Source: a virus
Strand: one strand, 5' to 3'
Virus record (IMG/VR): IMGVR_UViG_3300020404_000192
Span: 1 to 44,321 of that record
Length of the DNA: 44,321 nt
The notes under the pieces are model-generated. The model searched no databases. It was not told the origin of the DNA and saw only the letters and a list, made by a program, of their open reading frames with translations. Position numbers and translations under genes: made by a program. Positions 17,225-23,130 of the stretch are shown piece by piece. Position 1 is the first letter of the stretch, and the number at the start of each line of letters is the position of its first letter.

Positions 17225-17668
17225 TTACTCTAAATCTGGTAGTGTTTCCCCATTTAGTGTTAGTGTTACGTCATCACTAGCAATATATTTCTGATACTCT
17301 GATGCTAGTTGAGATGTCATGTAATGTAATTTATCAGGATTTGTGGGTGATAAATCTAATGCAGTGATCTCTGCTTGGTAAGTAGCAAGATCTATCTCAC
17401 CTAGTTTCAACTTCTTGGCACTGTTATATGCACCAGTTGCTTTAGTAGCATCTTGACCACTCTCAATAGCATCCTTCTTAACTTTATTAATGTAGTTAAG
17501 GTAAGTGTGCCACTTCTCTCTTTTTGGTTTTAGTAATGTCTCTGAGGTTTTACCCGCTAATCTTAGACCTTTAATGTAGTCTTCCTCTGCTGTTGACAGA
17601 GTTAAAGAACTATCATTACGCATCTGTAAGATAAGTAGATACTCAATAGGTGATAGTTTAATACTCAT
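17225..17668 (-). CDS. Helical hypothetical protein in the fibre cassette (147 aa)
   Basis: The start at 17668 (MSIKLSPIEYLLILQMRNDS) is preferred because its ATG overlaps the stop of the fibrinogen-like fibre gene as ATGA; an in-frame ATG three codons earlier is possible. The protein is mostly helical (EEDYIKGLRLAGKTSETLLK, REKWHTYLNYINKVKKDAIE) with the segment LHYMTSQLASEYQKYI near the end. No known domain is recognised. Coupling to a fibre gene suggests a fibre-assembly or chaperone role, which is inference. Confidence 0.7.
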   Translation of the reverse strand: MSIKLSPIEYLLILQMRNDSSLTLSTAEEDYIKGLRLAGKTSETLLKPKREKWHTYLNYINKVKKDAIESGQDATKATGAYNSAKKLKLGEIDLATYQAEITALDLSPTNPDKLHYMTSQLASEYQKYIASDDVTLTLNGETLPDLE

Positions 17669-18570
17669 TGAACCCAAATCTCCGCACGCATAGTTCTATT
17701 TACACCAGTGGTGCTTTGGCAGCAGTATATAAAGTCTCCTGCAGAAGCATCTGTTCTACGATGACCTATACCACTACAAACGTCATTGGAACTCTCACCA
17801 CCTTCGTTGTTCCAACCAAATCCCCAACGTGTAGCGTTGTTACTTGATCCAGTATAGTTAAATCCATACCATTGGTAACCACCCTGTGCTGAGAATCCAG
17901 ATCCAGACCACATACTTTCTCCACGAGGATTACTGGATAACTGTTGATTAGTTTGGAATCTTTGTAAGCATGTTTGACCGATACCACCTTGTTTCCAAGT
18001 CCAACCATTATAACCAACTGATGATTGTCCACCGTTGTTTATGTCTGGGAATACAGCACCCAATGTTCCTGCAACATAATAATTGAATACATGGTTCTTA
18101 TGGTCACCATCGTTTCTGTTCAACTGAGAGGTTTCATTGTATGTGTTTGTAGATGTCCAATAGTTAGTATCATAATGGAACGTGCTACCTCTTGTGCACT
18201 TCCATGCTAACATCCATCCACCACCACCTAAGTGGTTGGGATCCATCATACAATATACTTGTTTTGCACCTACACTAGGTAATAAGATCCAATATACTCC
18301 ATCAGTTGCTGATGAATTAACCTGTAATATAGCTGATGCATTTGTTGCTGCCTTGTCTGCTGATGAACCATCTGGTTCAGAACCACCACCAATGTCAATC
18401 CATTCAGTTCCAATCCAAGTTTGTAACTTTTCTGTAGTGCTATTATAAATCGTTGCTCCAACATCCACACCACTAGTCGGTCTGCCACCAGTTGAATAAC
18501 TAGGAAAGTTCAAAGCTGCAGCAGCATCTAAAGTGCTTGCGTTGACTCTTCCCACATTAAGCGTTCCCAT
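17665..18570 (-). CDS. Tail fibre protein with fibrinogen-like C-terminal domain (301 aa)
   Basis: The N-terminus (MGTLNVGRVNASTLDAAAAL, then a Gly-Thr segment ending TWIGTEWIDIGGG at about residue 63) resembles that of the 320-aa fibre at 23143. From about residue 90 the protein follows the fibrinogen C-terminal (FReD) pattern: GVYWILLPSVGAKQVYCMMD, GGGGWMLAWKC, and later WNNEGGESSNDVCSGIGHRR and AGDFIYCCQ. FReD domains in animals often bind acetylated sugars; in phage they are likely receptor-binding tips. There are paired cysteines but no signal peptide. An AGGAA ribosome site and a CTAAATA motif precede the start. Confidence 0.8.
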   Translation of the reverse strand: MGTLNVGRVNASTLDAAAALNFPSYSTGGRPTSGVDVGATIYNSTTEKLQTWIGTEWIDIGGGSEPDGSSADKAATNASAILQVNSSATDGVYWILLPSVGAKQVYCMMDPNHLGGGGWMLAWKCTRGSTFHYDTNYWTSTNTYNETSQLNRNDGDHKNHVFNYYVAGTLGAVFPDINNGGQSSVGYNGWTWKQGGIGQTCLQRFQTNQQLSSNPRGESMWSGSGFSAQGGYQWYGFNYTGSSNNATRWGFGWNNEGGESSNDVCSGIGHRRTDASAGDFIYCCQSTTGVNRTMRAEIWVQ

Positions 18571-18666: not shown

Positions 18667-20406
18667 TTATTTTTGCTTTGACAAAACTGTTACATACAAA
18701 CCGTTCCACCACATAGTATCATCCTCTTGATCGTTGAGTAACTCTCTTTCATATAAAACTTTAAGTCCAGACTCATCAATAAACCTTTTTGTTATAGAAA
18801 CGTTCTCTTCTATGTTTGCATCATCCACAACAAGAGTGAATACATCTTGTGTGAAGGTCATCATATTAAGAAAGAACTCTCTCATCTTTCTCTCTGAGTT
18901 ATCACCATCATAGAATATGATATTGACATCTTGTTTAAAATCTTTTTTACCAAGACTAGAACTGTCACCATTTAAAACTTCTATGTCAAAGTCTAATGTC
19001 TCTGTAGTAATATTCTCCTGTAAATTTTTCACAAAAGTATTTACGGTTACATTCTCCAGTGCTAGTGTGATGTCTTCCCTATAGGGTTGTAGATCTGGTT
19101 GTGACCAGTTATCATTTGCATACGCAGCTACCATATCATTGTTCTGCACTGCAGCACAGAATGTAGATCCTGCAAACACACCTACCTCAAGATATACTGC
19201 ACCCTCCTGTGAACAAAGGTTATTGAGAAAATGTCTGACTCTAGGTGATGTAAGTCCCTCTACATTATAATATGCACTAGGATCGTTAGGATCATAAGTC
19301 CTGTGGTTTGACAGATATTTACCTGAGTTATTGAATGCTTCTATACATGTCTCTACTTGTGGGTGCATGATAAGATCTGACTTCTTCATGTGTGCTTCTA
19401 CTACTTTCTCACAGTAGTTGCAATCCCAACAGTCAAACTTACATGTCTTGATCTTTTCTCTCCACATGACAAATGGAGAATCTTTTATCTTTAATTGGTT
19501 TTGATATTTTTTATACTCTGGAAACATATACTCATCTTCATCTGCCCATCTACGTATGAGATCCATACTTTCCTGTAATCTCATCATACTTTCTCTACCA
19601 TGTAGCTTAAATGTATCAACACCTAGATTGATCATCTCTACCCAATCTTCTCTCCATGGTGGTAGGTTTGCTTGCTTGAGATCTGCCTCTGGATGTTCGA
19701 CATCCCATGTAGAACAAGACACACGACTTATAGGACTAGCAAAGAATATGGGATCATCTTTAGTTCTAGTGCTATTGTATTGATAGTGTTCTGGCATGAT
19801 AGGACAACCACCCCAACATGTCTCATTAACTAATAAAGAAAACATTACGGGTTTGCCAAGATATGCACAATAATCTTTTGCTTTCTGTAATCTTAATAAT
19901 TGATCACGATCTCTCATGAGGTCACGATCTAGATTGATATAATGAAACCCTGCTTCTGCTAGTGATACTATCTCATTTGGTTTTGTTACTTCTCTAAGGA
20001 TAGTATTTTTTATAAAAAGATCTGGAAACGCTGCCTGTATTTGACCAGTAGATACCCATGTAGTATGGGGCAATGTAACTACTCTAACTCCTGCATTGTA
20101 GATAGGAGCAAATTCTTTTATCCACAGATCTAAATTCTTTTGATCTGGTCTAACCCATATATTATTAAACGTTGCTGATAATGGTATATCAGATTGTTGG
20201 GAAATATAACATGCAGACTCCGTTAATACTTCTGGAGACAAAAAAGTATCCCCCATAGCGTCCTGATCAAAGGGAGGGATACGACATGTAAAATAAAGAT
20301 CTAGTATATATTCTCTATACTTTTTTAGGAAAGGTAGAAATGTAGATACTACAAAGTCTTCACTCAGTTTAGGATTGATCGGTAGACTGAAGACTCTTTT
20401 GTTCAT
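18667..20406 (-). CDS. Fusion of a cysteine-rich (U32-like) TIM-barrel domain and a class I SAM methyltransferase (579 aa)
   Basis: Residues 1-320 have alternating strand-helix units ending in short polar motifs (AGVRVVTLPH, EAGFHYINLD, LGVDTFKLHG), as in a TIM barrel. LLVNETCWGGCPIMPEHY (C197, C201) with C231 recalls the iron-sulphur site of the U32 family. A second cluster, C322-x3-C326-x2-C329-x2-C332, joins the halves. Residues 400-579 look like a class I SAM methyltransferase of the Methyltransf_24 type: motif I YLEVGVFAGST (405-415), NDNWS (431-435), FYDGDNS (498-504) and VVDDAN (526-531). The start overlaps the 251-aa gene by 38 bases and lacks a strong ribosome site. It is the only apparent enzyme in the fibre cassette besides the protease. 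Substrate unknown; a radical-SAM enzyme is less likely because no CxxxCxxC is seen in the N-terminal barrel. Confidence 0.7.
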   Translation of the reverse strand: MNKRVFSLPINPKLSEDFVVSTFLPFLKKYREYILDLYFTCRIPPFDQDAMGDTFLSPEVLTESACYISQQSDIPLSATFNNIWVRPDQKNLDLWIKEFAPIYNAGVRVVTLPHTTWVSTGQIQAAFPDLFIKNTILREVTKPNEIVSLAEAGFHYINLDRDLMRDRDQLLRLQKAKDYCAYLGKPVMFSLLVNETCWGGCPIMPEHYQYNSTRTKDDPIFFASPISRVSCSTWDVEHPEADLKQANLPPWREDWVEMINLGVDTFKLHGRESMMRLQESMDLIRRWADEDEYMFPEYKKYQNQLKIKDSPFVMWREKIKTCKFDCWDCNYCEKVVEAHMKKSDLIMHPQVETCIEAFNNSGKYLSNHRTYDPNDPSAYYNVEGLTSPRVRHFLNNLCSQEGAVYLEVGVFAGSTFCAAVQNNDMVAAYANDNWSQPDLQPYREDITLALENVTVNTFVKNLQENITTETLDFDIEVLNGDSSSLGKKDFKQDVNIIFYDGDNSERKMREFFLNMMTFTQDVFTLVVDDANIEENVSITKRFIDESGLKVLYERELLNDQEDDTMWWNGLYVTVLSKQK

Positions 20407-21124
20407 TACCAGTTAATTGCTCAAATAGTTTAAGATCTAAGTTATCTTCTACATTGTCAAATGTAGGAATACGAGGTGCAGATCCATCAACCATCATCTT
20501 GTCAATCTGAGGTTTCAACTCATTCTGTATCTTACCGATACCTGCATTGAGAAGACCAGAATACTGCATTGCTATATTTAGTGTAGCATATTGATCATCT
20601 TCACGCATCATTGCTATCGAATCTAAGTTACCAACGCCTATTCTTCCTGTGCAATAAACATCCATTGCTGCCTGTTTACCCATACGAGCGATCCAATACT
20701 TACGTTCTTCTTCTTCGTTATACTTTGCTGCCTCTTCCAGTTCTTCCATTGTTCCATACTTCTTATGAACCCAATCCATGAACGCTTTTAATTCATTGTC
20801 AGACTGGTGTAGAGTTATTTTAAATCTACCCATATCTAATTTGAATTCTTGGATATCTAGCTCTATCAACTTACGATCATAAGGATCGTCAGTCACTTCA
20901 AGTTTTGCTTCTAATCTGTCTATATTAGTTTGCTTTCTTTCAATGTCTAAGAATAATTTTTTTCTTTCATGACTACGTGTAGATACTTCAGTTAATACTT
21001 GACGAAGTTTCCTCTTGTCAGTTACGTGGGAATTAACAACAAAGTTTTTAATTTGTTCATGTGTCATCCCAAAGTCCATATTGTCCTCTACATAGGACTC
21101 TATGGAATCAGGTGATATTGTCAT
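20369..21124 (-). CDS. Helical hypothetical protein in the fibre cassette (251 aa)
   Basis: No domain is recognised. The protein is largely helical and charged, with a probable coiled coil in the first half (RKLRQVLTEVSTRSHERKKL, LDIERKQTNIDRLEAKLEV, ELDIQEFKLDMGRF). The C-terminal third (GVGNLDSIAMMREDDQYATL, then GLLNAGIGKIQNELKPQIDK) is less charged. It starts three bases after the 274-aa gene (TAAACTATG) and overlaps the barrel-methyltransferase gene by 38 bases, so all three are probably made together. It may be a fibre assembly factor; this is only inferred from its place among fibre genes. Confidence 0.75.
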   Translation of the reverse strand: MTISPDSIESYVEDNMDFGMTHEQIKNFVVNSHVTDKRKLRQVLTEVSTRSHERKKLFLDIERKQTNIDRLEAKLEVTDDPYDRKLIELDIQEFKLDMGRFKITLHQSDNELKAFMDWVHKKYGTMEELEEAAKYNEEEERKYWIARMGKQAAMDVYCTGRIGVGNLDSIAMMREDDQYATLNIAMQYSGLLNAGIGKIQNELKPQIDKMMVDGSAPRIPTFDNVEDNLDLKLFEQLTGNEQKSLQSTDQS

Positions 21125-21127
21125 AGT

Positions 21128-21952
21128 TTAAAATTGCAATCCAGATTTTATAGGTAGTGGTGTCCAACCGTCTGCTTCGGTATTTCCTAGTTCTATTGCC
21201 TGTTGTTGTGGCATTGGAACTCCTAGGTAATCCTCCCAGAGAACGTTGAGTTCTTTTATTGTAGCACAGTCTGTAAATTTTTGCTTAAGAGCAACCATAG
21301 CATCGTATAACGCTAATGCTTTCTCATCGAAAGTTTTCTTTCCTGCAAGGACAGATGCTGCAACATCAGATACCGCAACGCTTTTGGCGGTAGCAATACT
21401 ATTTAGTATGGGTGTTTCACCCTCTAAATTGTTTGCTTCTGTTATTTGTGAATTCCAAAAATACTGTTCTAGCTTAGAATCTTCTGCCTTGAGTGATAAG
21501 AACTTTCTATCATACTCATCCTCAATAATTAATTTTGCAGACACTTTCATAAATGCAATTGCTGCATCAATTCTTTCTTGTGGTAATTCAATTTTTGTCT
21601 TAGGTCCTGTCTGTGATATTGCATACTCATCGCTAGTTGACAGTGGATCTTCATCTGTAACCTTAACTTCTGCACGAATTTCACCAAAGTGTTTGACACC
21701 CCATCTACCAATATCCTCACTAATCTCTTCGTAAGACTTAGTTAATCTATGAACTTCTCTAACCCATTTTTCTTTGATAGAAAATACAACCACACCATAC
21801 ATGTTCCACATGATGTCAACATCATTACTTGCACCACCAGCTGCAATATGATCTAACTCTGGACAACGCCTTGCCAAATAATACTTACGTTTTTCTGTCC
21901 CGTCCAGTATGTCAAGGACTTCTGTATCTAAATTAATTCCTGATGATGTCAT
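21128..21952 (-). CDS. Hypothetical protein in the fibre cassette (274 aa)
   Basis: I do not recognise a family. Visible features are an N-terminal segment KRKYYLARRCPELDHIAAGG, a beta-like stretch WNMYGVVVFSIKEKWVREVH, and long helices (ERIDAAIAFMKVSAKLIIED, FDEKALALYDAMVALKQKF). The end is proline-rich (DYLGVPMPQQQ, then ADGWTPLPIKSG). No signal peptide or membrane segment. It follows the propeller-like fibre gene by two bases and precedes the 251-aa gene by three. The tight linkage suggests a shared function with the fibres. Confidence 0.75.
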   Translation of the reverse strand: MTSSGINLDTEVLDILDGTEKRKYYLARRCPELDHIAAGGASNDVDIMWNMYGVVVFSIKEKWVREVHRLTKSYEEISEDIGRWGVKHFGEIRAEVKVTDEDPLSTSDEYAISQTGPKTKIELPQERIDAAIAFMKVSAKLIIEDEYDRKFLSLKAEDSKLEQYFWNSQITEANNLEGETPILNSIATAKSVAVSDVAASVLAGKKTFDEKALALYDAMVALKQKFTDCATIKELNVLWEDYLGVPMPQQQAIELGNTEADGWTPLPIKSGLQF

Positions 21953-21954
21953 GA

Positions 21955-23130
21955 TTACATTCCTGTGTATCCATATTGTAGAGTTCCAAACTCTACTCCT
22001 GCAGCAGATGCAGATCCACTGATTCCAGATCTATCCATTCTACTGTCTCTTGTGAAACTATGACTTGCATAGGTGAAGAGGTAACCATTATTGTTCTGGT
22101 TTCCATCATACTGTCCACAAATAAATCCAAATTCATTACCTGTGTGCATTGATTCCTCACCAGTAGTTATACCATTCTTACTTACGTTTGCCATACGACC
22201 ACCGTTGTAAGAGTCTCTTAAATGCCAATCACAACTGGTTCTGTATCCTCCACAAGTATTCCAGTATGAGAAACCGTTTCTACTTGATAAGGTTTTGTTA
22301 GAACCGTCAGTGCCAGGTGAGTCTGCCCAGTTAGTATATGATTCTGTAGAGAAGTTGTATGCGTATGCACCACCTTGTCTAATCCATCCTACTGTAGCAC
22401 CTTGTCCACATGAAGGGTTGTTCTGTGATCCACTAGGGTTTGATGTGGAGTTGTTACTTGCTTCTGTAGAAAGGTTGTATCTAACTGTATTACTACTGTT
22501 ACTACCTCCTCCATGAACATAAGCATAAACAAAGTCTCTACCCATAGCAGAACATCTGTTTCTACTAGATGACATGCTAGTAGCAGCACCCGCATTGGAT
22601 TCTGTGTTCATGTTTATCTTAGAAACATAACTTGTTGTAGAGTCCCAACTGTTACCAGTAGCAAATATGTATGCGTTCATATTTGAACTTGGTTTACCAT
22701 CAATATATGCACCTGACTGTGCTGATAAATCTCCTAAGTTTGTTTGTGTAAACGTTGCATGCACAAGTCTATTAACATTTCTCCAAGACTGTGCTCCACG
22801 ATATCCACAACAACTAAATCCTCTTGTTATATTAAATCCTGCTTTATACTTTGATTGTGAAAATCCTGCTACACCAGACGCACCTTCTCCTGTTGTATCC
22901 CAGTATGCTTGGTTTGATGTTCCACCTGATCTTAAAACTGCACCGAGGTTAGCAGCATTCTGTGTCGGTAGTGTGACAAATGGTTGACCATTTTGTAGTA
23001 GTTGACCAGTAAAATCGACGTTACCTGATATGTTGATTGTTCCACTAAACGAAGCACCACCAGTCGGAAACGAGACCTGACCCGATTCCGCTATATTCGT
23101 TACTTCATCAACTTTAATTCTAGATGCCAT
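21955..23130 (-). CDS. Tail fibre protein with propeller-like repeats (391 aa)
   Basis: The N-terminus MASRIKVDEVTNIAESGQVS followed by a Gly/Ser fibre-like region to about residue 90 is an attachment-type segment. From about residue 100 the chain repeats a pattern of aromatic/glycine strand, then a short Asn-Thr-Glu turn: SKINMNTESNAG, VRYNLSTEASN, YAYNFSTESYTNW. Such units with Gly-rich strands (AMGRDFVYAYVHGGG) are typical of kelch-like beta-propellers, though I cannot count blades with certainty. Several cysteines (CCGYRG, CGGYRTSC) may form disulphides or bind metal. It lies between two other fibre-like genes and is probably a receptor-binding tip. Confidence 0.72.
   Translation of the reverse strand: MASRIKVDEVTNIAESGQVSFPTGGASFSGTINISGNVDFTGQLLQNGQPFVTLPTQNAANLGAVLRSGGTSNQAYWDTTGEGASGVAGFSQSKYKAGFNITRGFSCCGYRGAQSWRNVNRLVHATFTQTNLGDLSAQSGAYIDGKPSSNMNAYIFATGNSWDSTTSYVSKINMNTESNAGAATSMSSSRNRCSAMGRDFVYAYVHGGGSNSSNTVRYNLSTEASNNSTSNPSGSQNNPSCGQGATVGWIRQGGAYAYNFSTESYTNWADSPGTDGSNKTLSSRNGFSYWNTCGGYRTSCDWHLRDSYNGGRMANVSKNGITTGEESMHTGNEFGFICGQYDGNQNNNGYLFTYASHSFTRDSRMDRSGISGSASAAGVEFGTLQYGYTGM

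Follow-up and report, generated by a model that had tools for sequence, protein, structure and literature searches.

Many marine cyanophages carry GC354, a previously unstudied two-part enzyme in which a U32-like barrel is, almost certainly, joined to a methyltransferase. In sequenced phages GC354 accompanies a propeller-shaped fibre protein and its partner gene, and so it may well modify that fibre. The reading of GC354 as an Fe-S/SAM two-step modifying enzyme dedicated to the tail-adhesin module is put forward tentatively.

The gene lies in a 44.3-kb stretch of viral DNA (the window; 44,321 nucleotides), which is collinear with the part of Prochlorococcus phage P-HM2 that holds the structural genes. 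The ORF at 18667-20406 (minus strand), to which an earlier note had drawn attention, is genuine and encodes 579 amino acids plus a stop, and the plus strand of this interval is riddled with stops. It is the cyanomyovirus protein T4-GC 354 (GC354), whose counterpart in P-HM2, PHM2_101, has 86% identity. The protein falls into phrog_1458 of the PHROGs collection (E 4e-234), which has no assigned function, and the family is labelled 'hypothetical protein' in the annotated cyanophage genomes examined. The features of GC354 and its upstream neighbours are as follows.

18667..20406, minus strand: whole GC354, with U32-like barrel, Cys4 linker and O-methyltransferase-like domain
19537..20406, minus strand: (beta/alpha)8 barrel, U32-like, residues 1-290 (AlphaFold2, hhalign, Foldseek)
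19837..19839, minus strand: S190, which alignment places where U32 proteins have the essential Glu (EcS1 E189; TrhP E162)
19714..19818, minus strand: C197-x3-C201-x29-C231, putative first metal/Fe-S site, conserved 56/56
19591..19611, minus strand: FKLHGRE (266-272), U32-type KxxGR motif; K267, G270 and R271 in 56/56
19411..19443, minus strand: CKFDCWDCNYC (322-332), second Cys4 site, conserved 56/56
18676..19260, minus strand: class I SAM methyltransferase, Methyltransf_24 type, residues 383-577 (Pfam, Foldseek)
18907..18909, minus strand: D500, first residue of a putative cation triad, 56/56; aligns with an Asp of TrmR/YrrM
18820..18825, minus strand: D528-D529, the two other residues of the putative cation triad, 56/56; aligns with Asp-Asn of TrmR/YrrM
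20369..21124, minus strand: GC353 (phrog_1409), coiled-coil-like, possible partner or chaperone; overlaps the beginning of GC354 by 38 nt
21128..21952, minus strand: GC352 (phrog_1604), fast-evolving module member, in 91/102 loci
21955..23130, minus strand: GC351 ('sericin-like'), candidate substrate; predicted kelch six-bladed beta-propeller with an N-terminal fibre segment

Conservation was assessed in an alignment of 56 family members from viral contigs, termed A3, with approximately 41-88% identity to the window copy. Counted by the simple Nei-Gojobori method, with seven relatives for comparison, dN/dS is about 0.05-0.1, which indicates strong purifying selection on GC354. A genome scan for cellular homologues gave only two MAG contigs, one assigned to Dehalococcoidia and one to Euryarchaeota (L084 = PBPE01000072.1; L085), and both are probably phage contamination introduced by binning. 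No homologues were found in the plasmids searched. Two existing records deserve comment. The annotated start of PSSM4_035 in P-SSM4 is about 40 codons late, as homology extends upstream into the GC353 overlap (L086 15001-15127). In P-SSM3 (NC_021559.1), the GC354 match at 114207-115894 is in two pieces, possibly due to a frameshift or a sequencing error.

An AlphaFold2 model built on A3 (56 sequences; mean pLDDT 88.7) predicts a (βα)8 barrel, a helical linker carrying the Cys4 site and a Rossmann methyltransferase. Eight alternating strand/helix units extend to residue 290, with barrel strands at 6-9, 34-40, 76-79, 109-112, 131-134, 156-159, 188-193 and 265-268, and the Rossmann domain begins at about residue 388. 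The N-terminal region had been described earlier as a TIM barrel, and a check for another fold left that description in place. Foldseek places a U32 structure, 5D88, among the TIM-barrel matches to the model (E 2.3e-5, TMt 0.63), and the nearest viral model with a functional name is a 'Peptidase' of Escherichia phage OLB35 (E 3e-9).

Searched directly against Pfam, NCBIfam and PDB sequences, neither the window protein nor the family profile matched U32; PF01136 likewise did not match the window protein and is absent from the listed families (25 of 38) of the 56 members. The U32 kinship is revealed only through an intermediate phage family and the fold comparison. A weak tblastn match (E 5) to Escherichia phage EcS1 provided the lead to a phage U32 protein, and the EcS1-type protein passes Pfam PF01136 (E 6e-11). 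Profile-profile comparison by hhalign aligns the GC354 barrel with the EcS1-type family over residues 33-348 (E 1e-7), and this match spans both cysteine clusters and the KxxGR motif. The EcS1-type family in turn matches bacterial U32 proteins, including UbiU, TrhP and RlhA, with E 6e-8. The GC354 family matches them directly with E 0.0024, or 9e-5 with EcS1 sequences added. Among 145 ORFs compared, those outside the GC354, EcS1-type and U32 families, which serve as controls, did no better than E 0.012, and a reversed EcS1 alignment gave 0.19. The ancestry of the barrel as a distant and divergent relative of the U32 superfamily is regarded as established.

Known U32 enzymes carry out O2-independent hydroxylation of quinone precursors and RNA pyrimidines, with a [4Fe-4S] cluster and prephenate (PMC6747719, PMC11574389, PMC6599085), by a mechanism that is still unresolved (PMC11574389). 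The EcS1-type U32 'peptidase' (phrog_5757, enteric T4-like phages) resembles GC354 throughout the domain, and the two share N-E-x-C, KxxGR and a C-terminal cysteine cluster (FDC...C.YCE). Near the last strand, K267, G270 and R271 of GC354 align with K271, G274 and R275 of EcS1. The EcS1 type differs in that it has no methyltransferase, has four barrel cysteines and retains the U32 Glu. It differs also in setting, as its gene lies near nucleotide and sugar genes and GC354 lies near fibres. The neighbours of EcS1 ORF039 (arabinose-5-phosphate isomerase, phosphoheptose isomerase, thymidylate synthase and thymidylate kinase) raise the question of whether GC354 modifies DNA bases, as this nearest phage U32 relative might. 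Such genes are not found beside GC354 in the annotated phages examined, and the distribution of GC354 tracks adhesin genes; DNA-base modification is highly improbable. The EcS1-type gene itself (L083 5476-6651), with its isomerase and thymidylate-enzyme neighbours, might encode a base hydroxylase of DNA hypermodification.

The canonical U32 Fe-S motif is CX6CX15CX3/4C (PMC6747719). It is found in 0/56 members of the GC354 family, which have instead CX3CX29C and an optional C41. The Glu that is essential in TrhP and RlhA (TrhP E162; PMC6599085) is replaced as well: residue 190 is Ser in 54/56 and Ala in 2/56, whereas EcS1-type proteins keep Glu in 7/7. TrhP and RlhA, which form ho5U34 and ho5C2501, show distant barrel homology but have both the CX6CX15CX3C motif and the Glu that GC354 lacks. 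TrhP is partly in register (hhalign E 0.004-0.009), although in single-sequence profile comparison it reaches only E 0.009, and UbiU and UbiV give nothing significant. UbiU/UbiV, O2-independent ubiquinone hydroxylases, share the barrel and the Fe-S principle; they differ in forming a heterodimer, in having no fused methyltransferase and in their motifs, CX6CX16CX38C (UbiU) and CXnCX12CX3C (UbiV). Accordingly, the U32 relationship suggested earlier stands in its profile and fold matches, but the canonical cysteine motif and the essential Glu do not go with it, and to judge by these residues the barrel is not a canonical U32 hydroxylase.

The cysteines reported previously at 197, 201 and 231 and in CKFDCWDCNYC at 322-332 are exactly so placed. 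C197, C201, C231, C322, C326, C329 and C332 are invariant (56/56), the first three being barrel residues and the rest linker residues, and the conservation expected of them is borne out; the remaining cysteines (66, 180, 354, 398 and 417) vary among the 56 homologues. C197/C201/C231 align with C196/C207/C237 of the EcS1 U32 protein. The description of these residues as U32-like holds as regards conservation, but they make up only part of a U32 signature. UbiV uses a far-upstream cysteine, C39, and C41 of GC354 is similarly placed in sequence order. C41 is Cys in 51/56 and Ser in 5/56, and it is Thr in P-SSM4. An essential, UbiV-like role is weakened because Ser or Thr replaces C41 in some homologues, and C41 may be regarded as a possible, not obligatory, fourth ligand.

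GC354 probably binds a metal or Fe-S cluster, and we infer Fe-S. The metal centre of the barrel would most likely be a [4Fe-4S] cluster bound by C197/C201/C231, whose fourth ligand could be C41 or another residue, or the position could be open. At the second site, C322-C332, a further Fe-S cluster or Zn is probably bound. Three cysteines of this site align with C344/C353/C356 of EcS1, and in the AlphaFold2 model it is carried on helices between the barrel and the Rossmann domain. Conservation and this helical linker bear out the earlier view that a second cluster connects barrel and methyltransferase. Formally, C322-x3-C326-x2-C329, conserved in 56/56, fits the CX3CX2C motif of radical-SAM enzymes. 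However, the motif follows the eighth predicted strand, not strand 1, its spacing differs in the EcS1 relatives, and there is no significant radical-SAM family or fold among the matches listed. A radical-SAM-like enzyme is therefore extremely unlikely, and the position of the motif was the ground for rejecting it.

The C-terminal domain is a class I SAM methyltransferase, as had been proposed: Methyltransf_24 is matched by 54/56 homologues (Pfam, best E 5e-11), with the window copy at 24.0 bits, slightly below the 26.3 cut-off. Foldseek matches of the domain are to cation-dependent or related O-methyltransferases (3CBG, 5LOG, 5N5D) and MeT1. A type III effector matched by the methyltransferase profile looks like a composition artefact and was set aside. 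In A3 the SAM motif is invariant, and little or no variation is seen at E407, G409, G413, D432, D500, D528, D529 and N531. The metal site of COMT-like cation-dependent O-methyltransferases consists of two Asp and one Asn (PMC6543040), and D500 and D528-D529 of GC354 align with this Asp...Asp-Asn site. D500 and D528 are invariant and the third triad residue is Asp529, not Asn. The domain shares with TrmR/YrrM, COMT-like and Methyltransf_24 enzymes the Rossmann fold, the SAM motif and a putative Asp...Asp-Asp/Asn cation triad, and differs from them in its fusion to a U32-like barrel, in DD for DN and in the absence of the general-base Lys. Residue 503, three after D500 and at the position of the proposed general-base Lys of COMT-type enzymes, is Asn in 13/56 (the window lineage) and His in 40/56, which counts against the two-step reading of GC354.

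The fusion of barrel and methyltransferase suggests, by analogy, a two-step modification, oxidation followed by O-methylation. The barrel would carry out an oxidative step, most likely hydroxylation, and the fused, putatively cation-dependent SAM methyltransferase would methylate the new hydroxyl, as U32 TrhP and then TrmR act on tRNA. That GC354 hydroxylates and then O-methylates in this order is a reading that we hold with some reserve. With the Glu missing and the cysteine set changed, the barrel may carry out an oxidation other than hydroxylation.

The same analogy admits a tRNA enzyme, a single chain that would combine a TrhP-like with a TrmR-like step and take wobble uridine of phage or host tRNA through ho5U to mo5U34. 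U32 enzymes of known RNA role hydroxylate pyrimidines; TrmR methylates the hydroxyl of ho5U formed by a hydroxylase, so that TrhP and TrmR together make mo5U34, and natural TrhO-TrmR fusions of the eukaryotes Phytophthora/Phaeodactylum also join a hydroxylase to an O-methyltransferase (PMC6599085). The TrhO hydroxylase is rhodanese-type and O2-dependent, whereas the GC354 barrel is U32-like. The best PDB sequence match of the methyltransferase profile, B. subtilis YrrM = TrmR, is weak (E 0.0036) and may be taken as a lead rather than proof. Against a tRNA substrate, GC354 lacks the Glu and cysteine motif of the RNA-hydroxylating U32 enzymes, it travels with adhesin genes and not with tRNA genes, and there are no tRNA genes in the window. 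A tRNA enzyme is considered unlikely.

The genomic setting points elsewhere. Among 102 contigs with enough flank around GC354, GC353 is upstream in 100/102 loci, GC351 in 94/102 and GC352 in 91/102, and in about two thirds of loci GC353 and GC354 share an overlap of 22-58 nt. The placement in a fibre cassette, noted before, is thus confirmed by conserved neighbours as well as by collinearity with P-HM2. GC352 was found by tblastn in only 26 phage records. GC351, GC353 and GC354 are each found in 123 isolated-phage records, compared as totals and by genus breakdown, which is the same for all three (77 Synechococcus, 38 Cyanophage, 8 Prochlorococcus); gp17, by comparison, is found in at least 438 cyanophages. 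In S-ShM2 all three are kept although GC354 is approximately 6 kb from GC353. This co-occurrence can reflect co-inheritance of a cassette and not an enzyme-substrate pair. Also in S-ShM2, three 2OG-Fe(II) oxygenase genes adjoin GC353 (L088 6239-8915), a further hint at hydroxylation in the fibre region. Within the window, a gene at 17665-18570 (minus strand) has a fibrinogen-like GGGWT domain (NF040941, E 3.7e-9) and is likely another receptor-binding gene.

GC351 has been named 'sericin 1 precursor-like', which is misleading. Its AlphaFold2 model has a pLDDT of 78 overall, higher in the propeller part, with a low-confidence N-terminal segment, and it matches Keap1-type kelch domains with TMt ~0.8 (Foldseek). 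The prediction is an adhesin whose kelch beta-propeller has six blades and stands on a fibre base. Residues Y110, Y142, E325, N347 and S375 of GC351 are invariant. With the terms used, a literature search for U32 or sericin-like genes in cyanophages returned no paper.

Position among structural genes and the overlap with GC353 could also mean that GC354 is a non-catalytic structural or assembly protein, a fibre chaperone or virion component that re-uses enzyme folds. Invariant cysteine sets, SAM motif and Asp triad argue against this. So does the rate of change: the barrel averages approximately 65% identity, and neighbouring genes fall to 20-35%, the opposite of what is expected of a fibre part. 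A structural role is quite improbable, and the far better conservation of GC354 fits an enzyme acting on variable fibre proteins. Perhaps the substrate is instead a small molecule or sugar, such as a host surface or phage glycan. UbiU/UbiV hydroxylate a quinone precursor (PMC6747719), and the structure matches of GC354 include Macrocin-type O-methyltransferases from other viruses. However, the conserved partners in the neighbourhood are GC351 and GC353, and neither biosynthetic nor glycosyltransferase genes were seen beside them; this alternative is rather doubtful.

Of the targets suggested in the earlier note, fibres, tRNA or host surface molecules, synteny and phylogenetic profile favour the fibre module. 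From the genomic context, a fibre-module component is a credible substrate, if somewhat short of an even chance. Given the strict association with the adhesin module, the product is expected on GC351 or GC353; the substrate would most likely lie within this co-inherited module and would above all be the kelch-propeller GC351. We know of no U32 enzyme that acts on a protein. The fullest form of the proposal, that GC354 is the first protein-acting U32-superfamily Fe-S enzyme and places a hydroxyl and then a methyl group on the kelch-propeller receptor-binding protein of cyanophages during infection, so that adhesin function would depend on the modification, is a long shot.

If modification of the fibre module by GC354 is correct, an Fe-S/SAM enzyme chemically alters the adhesins of marine cyanophages. 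In this abundant group of ocean viruses, iron supply and recognition of the host would then be connected. U32 chemistry would reach beyond RNA and quinones, with a defined and testable enzyme-substrate pair. Whatever the substrate, a U32 clade that departs from the canonical type, has an extra Cys4 site and is fused to a methyltransferase represents a new architecture in which to study the U32 mechanism.
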